A stretch of 64,000 bases of DNA from Pseudomonas sp. R84 (GTDB lineage: Bacteria > Pseudomonadota > Gammaproteobacteria > Pseudomonadales > Pseudomonadaceae). The stretch is from positions 2,035,501 through 2,099,500 of the forward strand of contig NZ_CP019426.1 in NCBI RefSeq assembly GCF_009834515.1, written 5' to 3'. The notes under the pieces are model-generated. The model worked only from the letters and a program-made list of their open reading frames with translations, searched no databases and was not told the origin of the DNA. The number at the start of each line of letters is the position of its first letter. Position 1 is the stretch's first letter. Shown in pieces: positions 8,202 through 10,635 of this stretch. The position numbers and the translations under genes are program-made.

Positions 8202-8885
8202 ATGTCGATCAAAGCCATTGTCACTGACATCGAAGGCACCACCAGCGCGGTGAGTTTCGTCTTCGACGTGCTGTTTCCGTATGCCGCTAAACACCTGCCG
8301 GACTTTGTCCGTCAGAACGCCGAGCGTGCCGATGTCGCCGAGCAACTTGATGCCGTGCGCCGTGACAGCAATGCACCGCAGGCGGATGTTGAACGGGTTG
8401 TTGAAATCCTCTTGAGCTGGATCGAGGAAGATCGCAAAGCCACTCCGCTCAAGGCCTTGCAAGGCATGGTCTGGGCCCAGGGTTATCACGCCGGGCAGTT
8501 GAAAGGGCATGTTTATCCGGATGCCGTTGAAGCGCTCAAGCAATGGCATCAGGCGGGTTATCAACTGTTTGTGTACTCGTCGGGCTCGATTCAGGCGCAG
8601 AAGCTGATTTTCGGCTGCTCGGAGGCGGGGGATCTGACACCGCTGTTCAGCGGCTATTTCGACACGACGTCGGGGCCCAAGCGCGATTCGCAGTCGTACA
8701 CCAATATCCAGAAAGCCATTGGCGTCGAACCCGAAGAAATCCTGTTCCTCTCGGATATCGTCGAAGAACTCGACGCCGCGCAGTCTGCCGGCCTGCAAAC
8801 CTGCGGTTTGGCTCGCGAAGGCGGCGAGCTGGGCAGCCACATCACCGTCGACACCTTCACCGGCATCGAACCCGAAGCCTTCTAA
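8202..8885 (+). CDS. mtnC: Enolase-phosphatase E1
   Basis: A 227-residue HAD-superfamily enzyme that enolises and dephosphorylates the diketo intermediate of methionine salvage to give acireductone, the substrate of MtnD. The HAD nucleophile motif [13 protein letters not shown] is at residues 7-19. The [11 protein letters not shown] segment provides motif II, and [13 protein letters not shown] provides the acidic motif III. The ATG at 8202 follows GGAGGACTGATTCG, which holds a good ribosome-binding site. It closes the mtnB-mtnD-mtnC series; the IS110 element begins 18 bases after the stop codon. Confidence 0.95.
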
Positions 8886-8918
8886 CCCACACAATCCCTG
8901 TAGATACTCTGTTCACGG

Positions 8919-9914
8919 TCAAGCTTTTGCGAGATCTTTTGCGCAAAAAAGCTTGGCCGTATTGAAATCTTCGCCGGCTCGCATGCAGGCCCACAAGCCG
9001 GTCAGGTATTTGCGCATGACGGCGACGATAGCCTGCATCTTTCTCTTCCCTCGCCCGATCAACGCTTCGTAAAAGGCTTTCACGTTGCTGTCGCAACGTA
9101 TGGCAGTCAGCGCTGGCATGTACATCGCTGAACGTAGGTAGGTGTTTCCGCCCTTACTTATCCGCCCAGGTTTATCGATGCTGGTACCTGATTGCGTAAG
9201 CCGCACATCGAGTCCTGCATGTCGGCTGACCTGCGCGGACTTAAGTGTCACTGGCAAGGTCGTCAATTCAGCCAGTGCCGCAAATACTGAAATTTCGCCC
9301 ATGCCCGGCGCTGCGATCATGTGCCCAAACTGGGCGCTTAGCGTCGGGCAGTTGTCGATCAGCGCCCGACCTGCGAGCCTGAAACGCTCGATTCGCTTGT
9401 CAAAAGCTTCAATGGCTTCTTCTTCGTCTTCAATCAGCATTTTCACGGTTGTTTGAGTAGCTTTCAGCGCATGCAGCTCGTTCTTGGCTCGGGTGCGATG
9501 ACACGTCAAACGATTGATATGCCTTCCGATAGCCCGCAGTTCCAACTGTATGGTCGTGGGCGGCGTCCACAATTTTGGGCTCATGCGTTCGCCGTATTCG
9601 GCTAGCAACTGGGCATCGATCGCATCGGTTTTGCTGTTTTTCAGCATCAGCTTGGCAAAGTTATGAAAGCTCTTCGGGTTGATAACCGAAACGGGCAAAC
9701 CCGCCGCGGTGAGCTCCATGGCCAAATCCAGGTAATAGATGCCGGTGGCCTCCATCACTACGGATAAAGGCTTGAGCTCGAGCAACCTGTTGACCGCTGC
9801 TTTGCGCCCGGCGGGTGTTTGGTCGATGTTGCAGGCCCCTGCAAAACGGCCGTCGTTGCGCCAGCCCATGGCGGTCGTGCGAGACCCCACATCCAAACCG
9901 ACATGCATGCTCAT
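8919..9914 (-). CDS. IS110-family DEDD transposase/recombinase
   Basis: A 331-residue recombinase with the RuvC-like N-terminal DEDD domain: D8 (GLDVGSRTT), E55 (VMEATGIYY), and D97 and D100 (KTDAIDAQLL). A helical linker at about 120-180 leads to the C-terminal Transposase_20 domain (IAAPGMGEISVFAALAEL), then a QSG segment at 241-243 whose serine is the candidate catalytic nucleophile, followed by GRISKGGNTYLRS. The length is normal and there are no interruptions, so it is probably active. A ribosome-binding GGAG sits nine bases before the ATG. Members use a bridge RNA encoded by their own non-coding end. Confidence 0.95.
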   Translation of the reverse strand: MSMHVGLDVGSRTTAMGWRNDGRFAGACNIDQTPAGRKAAVNRLLELKPLSVVMEATGIYYLDLAMELTAAGLPVSVINPKSFHNFAKLMLKNSKTDAIDAQLLAEYGERMSPKLWTPPTTIQLELRAIGRHINRLTCHRTRAKNELHALKATQTTVKMLIEDEEEAIEAFDKRIERFRLAGRALIDNCPTLSAQFGHMIAAPGMGEISVFAALAELTTLPVTLKSAQVSRHAGLDVRLTQSGTSIDKPGRISKGGNTYLRSAMYMPALTAIRCDSNVKAFYEALIGRGKRKMQAIVAVMRKYLTGLWACMRAGEDFNTAKLFCAKDLAKA

Positions 9915-9969
9915 GCTTTCAACTCCGAGTGAACTGGGTTAGAAATGCATCCTGGTTCCCCTGACCTCG

Positions 9970-10172
9970 AACTTCATGCCACTGCAACCTTGTAATGCGA
10001 AGTCCGACTTGTCGGCTTCTCGATACTCTTCGTGGTGGGCAATGAGGCGGGGGGACCTCTCTACAGACAAGGTCAGGAGCAAGTCCTGCCTTTAGGAGCG
10101 ATCGGTCTCCCCCAGAAACACATCTTCGTATGTCCGCACCAGCGAGCTTAGATCTCAATTGACTGGTGTGAG
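9970..10172 (-). ncRNA. Predicted IS110 bridge RNA
   Basis: Read 5' to 3' on the minus strand. A 5' hairpin pairs 10163-10168 with 10137-10142. A target loop follows: outer stem 10108-10113 with 10050-10055, apical hairpin 10090-10071. Its left arm (10099-10093, GCTCCTA) matches one strand of the rejoined REP target and its right arm (10066-10061, CTGTAG) the other. A donor loop follows: outer stem 10041-10035 with 9982-9977, apical hairpin 10019-9999. Its left arm (10029-10022, AGAGTATC) matches the left element end at 8903-8910 and its right arm (9994-9989, TACAAG) complements the right end at 10180-10185. This is the published bridge RNA layout; expression is inferred. Confidence 0.75.
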
Positions 10173-10184
10173 GGCAACATACAA

Positions 10185-10261
10185 GGAGCTGCGGAAGGCT
10201 GCGATCTTTTGATTCTGATCTTAAAAAAAAGATCAAAAGATCGCAGCGTTCCGCAGCTCCT
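10185..10261. repeat. REP-like palindrome, GATC class, split by the IS110 element
   Basis: The arms GGAGCTGCGGAAGGCTGCGA and their near-complement (ending GCAGCTCCTACA) flank a short AT-rich centre. The first bases of the left arm (CCTGTAG) now lie at 8897-8903, on the other side of the insertion sequence. Confidence 0.9.
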
Positions 10262-10296
10262 ACAAAGAGTTCGCGATCGCGATGGAGATCGCGCAT

Positions 10297-10341
10297 AAAA
10301 AAACAGGCCGTGAAGCGAGAGCTCCACGGCCTGTTTTGTTT
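10297..10341 (-). terminator. Rho-independent terminator
   Basis: The stem AAACAGGCCGTG pairs with CACGGCCTGTTT around a short loop, with A/T runs on both sides. It lies 16 bases beyond the stop of the DUF3509 gene on the minus strand and could work in both directions. Confidence 0.85.
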
Positions 10342-10356
10342 AAAGCGCTTTAGAAG

Positions 10357-10635
10357 TTACAGCGAGTGATAAGTCGGCAGGGCAAAACGCTGCTGGCTCT
10401 GCAGCATGGCAATTTGCGGCAGTTCACTGGCCTGTTCAGCCAGGTCGCGGCGAATTGCACTGATCGCCCACGACAGTTGGTCGCCGGCATGCAGTTGTTG
10501 ATAAGTCAGTGCGCGTTTAAACACTTTGCCGTCGCTGCTGCGCAGAGTCAGCAGGATCCCGCCATCGGGACGTGGCGCAGTGGTGACGTCGAAGTTGGAG
10601 AACAGGGAGGTAAATTTTTCTTGGATCAGGCTCAT
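10357..10635 (-). CDS. DUF3509 family protein
   Basis: A 92-residue soluble protein starting MSLIQEKFTSLFSNFDVTTA, recognisable as the Pseudomonas-specific DUF3509 family. No biochemical function is established. The ATG at 10635 is preferred over upstream in-frame codons because GGAGCTGAAAG precedes it. The region further upstream is very AT-rich, with the direct repeat GTTATAAAT at 10720 and 10735, and probably holds the promoter. A strong terminator follows the gene, so it is probably transcribed alone. Confidence 0.85.
   Translation of the reverse strand: MSLIQEKFTSLFSNFDVTTAPRPDGGILLTLRSSDGKVFKRALTYQQLHAGDQLSWAISAIRRDLAEQASELPQIAMLQSQQRFALPTYHSL

Follow-up and report, generated by a model that had tools for sequence, protein, structure and literature searches.

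An IS110 element in REP sequences of Pseudomonas sp. R84 with a predicted bridge RNA and target guide letters that vary with the insertion site

The 64,000 nucleotides of Pseudomonas sp. R84 analysed here (the window) contain an IS110 transposase gene preceded by a long non-coding stretch and inserted in a REP sequence. The locus raises the question of whether this stretch specifies a bridge RNA, as a first-pass annotation had proposed from the letters, and how much of the REP such an RNA would read. Other copies and relatives are referred to below by locus (L) and genome (G) numbers.

Transposase and element ends

The element and its surroundings are organised as follows, in window positions.
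8904..10183, minus strand: IS110 element of 1280 bp with a CT core on either side
8919..9914, minus strand: DEDD transposase (recombinase) of 331 amino acids with PF01548 and PF02371, the longest frame in the element
8902..8903, minus strand: CT core of the right end (RE), followed by the right half of the target, ACAG, at 8901-8898
10184..10185, minus strand: CT core of the left end (LE), with the left half of the REP target, ...CCGCAGCTC, just before it
10184..10264: two inverted REP copies adjoining the left end, the copy at the element being the interrupted target

PF01548 and PF02371 are both above the Pfam cut-off in the 331-residue protein, and the NCBIfam model NF033542 (IS110 family RNA-guided transposase) scores 178.8 bits against a cut-off of 140. 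E55, D97, D100 and S242 fall at conserved columns in an alignment with IS621 and ISCro4, and D8 is the expected first D of the DEDD set. Beyond the residues equivalent to D102 and S241 of IS621, the remaining DEDD and serine residues are presumably catalytic too. ISCro4 and IS621 are the only PDB sequences matched at E 0.001, with ISCro4 as the best match (E 2e-34) and IS621 as a distant one (phmmer E 1e-26). The catalytic residues described for IS621 include D102 and S241 (PMC11208158). Among plasmid records four relatives passed the limit used, with 49% identity at best, and therefore no element name could be taken from them.

The non-coding DNA is divided into 269 bases 5' of the transposase gene and 15 bases from the stop codon to the right end. 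A CT core is found ahead of LE in 50 of 50 rows and behind RE in 46 of 46, host and relatives together; the motif used to search for loci had already fixed the two end motifs and, in the LE core, the T. The full CTTGTATGTT is present in all 38 loci tested, and the target-loop loci outside the flank table are second fetches of tabled copies only. A search of positions 8800-10400 against Rfam gave 11 matches, all to miRNA models under the gathering score and all on the REP hairpin.

Three kinds of partial duplication were seen in relatives. In L023 (G020) the element 5' end is repeated in tandem over 286 bp, at about 947-1240 of the reversed locus; the first LE runs into its own transposase gene start and is joined there at CT (with CGGT before) to the second LE. 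All four copies in G213 (L021, L030, L037, L043) contain another RE, 412 bp beyond the first; L021 shows an exact duplication of the 411-bp 3' end, with the inner RE joined at AGTATC to transposase sequence, and the element appears to have transposed as one unit of 1693 bp. L017, from Pseudomonas sp. Root562, has 103 bp of the 3' end repeated at about 1246-1349, with RE-CT-ACAGG as the junction to the transposase-gene sequence ACAGGTCG. Each of the three has one breakpoint at the element's own core, and they are perhaps misdirected recombinase events.

A promoter-like sequence across the joined ends

8917..8922, minus strand: TTGACC in RE, a -35-like box that shares letters with the transposase stop codon (8921-8919)
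10176..10181, minus strand: TATGTT in LE, a -10-like box that lies 17 bp away from TTGACC once RE and LE are joined

Joining RE to LE would create TTGACC-17-TATGTT in all but one of 14 elements, the exception having TTGATC-17-TATGTT, as judged by match to the consensus only, and in the 13 elements with a full flank the REP-side stretch at LE scores below the joined-end promoter. By this consensus match the joined ends would form a putative, promoter-like sequence of the σ70 kind, and in IS621 a promoter is described as arising from the joined ends (PMC11208160).

The predicted bridge RNA

Downstream of the -10-like box the following parts are predicted.
9975..10169, minus strand: predicted bridge RNA of ~195 nt, its start placed by the -10 box and its end by the donor loop
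10137..10168, minus strand: 5' stem-loop CACCAG/CUGGUG, from single-sequence folds judged by eye
10049..10113, minus strand: target-binding loop, with the stem GGGGG-A-GACC / GGUCCCCCC containing a bulged A, the left target guide, an upper hairpin and the right target guide
10094..10099, minus strand: left target guide (LTG), core-proximal GCUC and core CU, with the invariant GAUC (10103-10100) before it
10061..10066, minus strand: right target guide (RTG) CUGUAG, complementary to CT-ACAG
9975..10044, minus strand: donor-binding loop, its extent set by analogy
10022..10029, minus strand: left donor guide (LDG) AGAGUAUC, equal to the RE end and the first core base
9989..9996, minus strand: right donor guide (RDG) AUUACAAG, complementary to CT-TGTAT with one U unpaired, which may be a bulge by analogy with IS621

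The four guide segments of the first-pass annotation are found on the strand and at the positions it gave, namely GCTCCT at 10099-10094, CTGTAG at 10066-10061, AGAGTATC at 10029-10022 and TACAAG at 9994-9989. It had also counted a seventh letter, as GCTCCTA; among relatives this position is A, T or G, which makes the letter incidental. When the 223-nt stretch was shuffled 20,000 times with its dinucleotides kept, the four segments never came up together in order, and the single frequencies of the four multiply to about 7e-7, in both cases for words picked after viewing the sequence; the ordered pair of target guides occurred in 42 of 20,000 such shuffles.

The single-sequence fold of the host RNA is unremarkable (z -1.3, with 19 of 200 shuffles folding equally well) and is unconvincing by itself, and the structural argument rests on compensatory changes among the relatives. 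In the target loop, all 13 distinct RNAs have a fully paired inner lower stem, whose letters change on both sides (GACC/GGUC, GGCC/GGCC and AGCC/GGCU) beside an invariant bulged A. Stems with compensatory changes among homologues had been predicted, and the target-loop stem bears this out, changing in step on its two sides in 13 of 13. The 5' stem-loop is located at the same place in 12 of the 13, with differing letters, the exception being L032. RNAalifold on a MAFFT alignment gave changes on both sides in four of 53 pairs, but gaps were placed such that the 5' stem-loop and a portion of the target-loop stem escaped it, and the stems were therefore judged sequence by sequence. For the lower stem of the donor loop, covariation was looked for in the relatives' alignment and none supporting the stem was found. 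The LDG and RDG letters match the element ends in 15 of 15 distinct RNAs, and as the donor guides and ends are invariant, covariation cannot probe the donor pairing.

The GAUC just 5' of the left guide (10103-10100) is invariant in all 15 distinct RNAs, though the targets vary there; the nine-base guide of IS621 would cover part of the place that it holds.

Copies in the host genome

The host genome (6.6 Mb, one contig) contains six copies of the element, four identical and two with three differences each, in different surroundings and with exact ends. The transposase frame is open in all five of the home copies listed. All six are inserted at CAGCTC-CT-ACAG of a REP and in the same orientation to it, with the left flank CGCAGCTCCT in one copy and GGCAGCTCCT in five, and CTACAG on the right.

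The guides fit the GCTCCTACAG class of host REP ends, of which 242 intact examples are present in the genome against 51 of the reversed pattern. There are 11 occurrences of TCGCTCCTACAG, a form that fits two further guide letters, and none of the six copies is inserted in one. A 400-kb host sample has about equal numbers of ACTCCTACA (35) and GCTCCTACA (32), and 18 of the GCTCCTACA are followed by G. Six draws from the 77 host background sites of the form [AG][CG]TCCTAC equalled the observed match in a share of 0.00017 of 100,000 trials, and of 0.005 when the +4 letter was removed.

Agreement between guides and targets in relatives

Relatives with about 70-97% DNA identity were collected, and the counts below draw on 12 genomes, with 53 flanks on the left and 45 on the right, among them those of the six home copies. 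One scan of genome contigs gave 11 loci, and searches of the genus at set E-values found relatives in 9 of 398 genomes (own genome included) and in 8 of 397, the draws being apparently near-identical. Whole-genome searches scored no more than five protein candidates per genome, and further copies were taken from eight relative-bearing genomes and from the genomes of L009, L010 and L015. The inner LE of the self-rearranged L023 was left out of the counts, as was a merged G131 row that was replaced by five flanks; one of these, the L017 flank of nine bases at a contig end, may duplicate another, so that the independent left flanks are maybe 52. The partial or distant loci L016, L018, L019, L070, L223 and a G134:C46 fragment were not used.

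Every insertion site had been expected to match the two target guides, and this holds next to the core, where 52 of the 53 left flanks have all four core-proximal guide letters and all 45 right flanks the first three. By position, the agreement on the left is 53/53 at each of -1, -2 and -3 and 52/53 at -4, and then drops to 39/53 at -5, 17/53 at -6 and 1/53 at -7; at -8 it is 45/52, but the guide letter there never varies. The right side agrees in 45/45 at each of +1, +2 and +3 and in 33/45 at +4. The first core letter agrees in 53/53 and the second, a flank T that was part of the search motif, in 49. The poor agreement at -5, -6 and -7 indicates a left guide of fewer bases than the nine in IS621. 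The agreement of invariant letters says little, and the weight is therefore carried by changes in the guide.

The only left-side mismatch at -4 is L031 in G034, where the guide has G and the site, ACTCC, has A. For G389 the guide calls for T at +4, and the 11 sites have A in four, G in four, T in two and C in one, against a background of 12 AG, seven AA, two AT and one AC (T in 2 of 22). These sites rule out the +4 letter of the RTG as a strict determinant. The G217 copy L074 has the RTG AUGUAG against CUGUAG in the other seven, and its site is CTACAG as in the others.

For each genome, 100,000 draws were made from background sites and the share with at least as many matched letters was counted, first over -4, -3, +3 and +4 and then over -4, -3 and +3. 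These shares are too small, because the background sets include some non-REP TCCTAC sites.
G000 (host): 0.00017 and 0.005
G020: none and 0.0003
G034: 0.0085 and 0.10
G213: 0.076 and 0.57
G217: 0.0033 and 0.015
G389: 0.0098 and 0.033

Natural switches of guide letters

Three guide positions (-4, -3 and +3) vary among the elements and the targets vary alongside, two of them (-3 and +3) being known from a single genome, G020. The elements with guide A at -4, in G213 and PfAR1, face target A in 5 of 5 sites. In G020 the guide has G at -3, and the RTG is CCGTAG instead of CTGTAG; the sites read GGTCC and ACG in 4 of 4, so that both changed letters, at -3 and at +3, face G in all four. Among 20 sites in a sample of this genome that consist of GGTCCTAC followed by A, G or T, G was found in just five. 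At the second core base the G020 guide disagrees with its sites, with C against T in 4 of 4.

In a tree made after removal of the guide letters, PfAR1 (guide A) is located beside the host copies (guide G) in a clade with support 100/100, the DNA identity of PfAR1 to the host elements being 96.9%. The G213 element (guide A) lies beside those of SWRI31 and G034 (guide G) in another clade (100/99), with an inner pair at 94/94, just under the tool's mark. Each of the two clades needs at least one change, and the -4 letter has therefore switched at least twice. Host and REP class are partly confounded, as the A class dominates in the genomes with guide A, by 66 to 5 in 400 kb of G213 and by 6 to 1 in 100 kb of PfAR1, and site choice and host REP content are therefore inseparable there. 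PfAR1 has a single copy, with a mismatch at the +4 letter. From these comparisons the guide letters between -4 and +3 appear to vary with the site, and those at -7, -6 and +4 do not.

Alternative explanations and proposed mechanism

The family, ends, cores, guide letters, promoter-like boxes, the six home insertions of one type and the matched changes of guide and target can all be read from the DNA. Guide matches, stem covariation, the PDB relatives and the NCBIfam family together support the first-pass reading, and we give a probability of roughly 0.94 to the element being an intact-looking IS110 insertion sequence of the IS621 type with a predicted bridge RNA. One could also suppose that the transposase protein, not the RNA, recognises the REP and that the likeness of the RNA letters to the target has a different origin, for instance the capture of REP DNA. 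All counted sites are REP-like, host and REP class are partly confounded as described above, and the IS3 and IS4 families, outside IS110, also include REP-specific elements (PMC1525189), but elements as close as 96.9% differ at -4 and occupy correspondingly different REP ends (with one PfAR1 site), and a second clade shows this switch again. The guide letters are moreover distributed on the two strands of a loop in opposite sense and not as one REP copy, and IS621 acts through RNA (PMC11208160), making recognition by protein alone very unlikely.

It is less probable still that the element is immobile and that its copies were duplicated by homologous recombination between REPs. With 242 intact GCTCCTACAG in the genome REPs are abundant enough to recombine, yet the six copies, differing from one another by so little, have exact ends in different surroundings, and the frame is open in the five that were listed. 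An IS1111-type element with a downstream seekRNA has an equally slight chance; that type belongs to the same superfamily, and ISPa11, a member of it, targets REPs of P. aeruginosa (PMC11187229). A long non-coding region is found upstream of the gene in IS110 but not in IS1111 elements (PMC11187229), and here only 15 bases follow the stop codon against 269 upstream, which speaks strongly against IS1111 membership, and the order of the strand matches, with the bottom-strand match 5' of the top-strand match, is that of IS110.

For the preferred reading, an insertion sequence guided by a bridge RNA, the steps of excision, transcription, pairing and strand exchange can be sketched by analogy with the family. 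The recombinase would excise the element as a circle, and the joining of RE to LE would build the promoter TTGACC-17 bp-TATGTT, from which LE would be transcribed into the RNA of ~195 nt. Both strands of the REP, around its CTAC (GTAG) end, would pair with the first loop of this RNA, the joined element ends would pair with its second loop, and strands would then be exchanged by the recombinase at the shared CT.

A further reading, offered tentatively and with somewhat better odds against it than for it, is that the clade is a short-guide lineage that reads only the REP end (four letters on the left, the core and three on the right, centred on CTAC), where one guide serves several REP classes and hosts because the REP end is common to several REP types, and where single base changes shift the class as host REPs change. 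REP transposases (RAYTs) are thought to recognise GTAG, and the target centre CTAC is its complement, suggesting that the guide may exploit the part of the REP that is kept by RAYT recognition. GTAG starts many, but not all, of the REPs in Table 1 of PMC2817692, where several Pseudomonas REPs start with GTGG.

Related elements with bridge RNAs form a natural series in which a difference of one or a few letters between guides is matched by a difference between sites, and the important guide bases should therefore be readable from genomes and then testable. The effective target of about nine bases, against eleven in IS621, would be a useful comparison for bridge-recombinase tools.

Comparison with known systems

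In a literature search limited to open-access journal papers, none turned up that deals with altered guides in REP-targeting IS110 elements of Pseudomonas. A natural case of redirected guide and target has been reported for the relatives ISEc21 and ISMch6 (PMC11187229), where the target lies in IS3-family genes and ISMch6 is a single copy, whereas many copies and a repeated one-base switch are seen here. ISPpu9 and ISPpu10 of P. putida KT2440 are IS110 elements with seven of seven copies each in REPs, at one identical REP point and with 2-bp repeats (PMC1525189), and are likened to the present element by that description; the repeat of ISPpu9 is given as AG (PMC8450116). The sRNAs Asr9 and Ssr9 have been described for ISPpu9. 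The likeness to the ISCro4 recombinase is known from sequence alignment alone.

The closest comparison is with IS621, an E. coli element with a distant protein, whereas the element here uses Pseudomonas REPs. The two share the recombinase domains, the upstream non-coding end, two guide loops, the CT core, a REP target with CTAC, a promoter across the joined ends and a flipped-out A in the loop stems, as well as the donor top strand CTTGTAT, when read from the base numbers in PMC11208158. They differ in the left guide, with seven letters and the core in IS621 and effectively four and the core here, and in the right target guide, which extends effectively three letters beyond the core here and two in IS621; the RDG is one U shorter than that of IS621 by the base numbering in PMC11208158. 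The REP insertion and bridge RNA of IS621 have been published (PMC11208160; PMC1525189), as has guide-target covariation across IS110 elements (PMC11208160). Bridge RNA elements of the IS621 type in REPs are thus already known, and what is added by the Pseudomonas element and its relatives is the short effective guide and the repeated one-letter switches.
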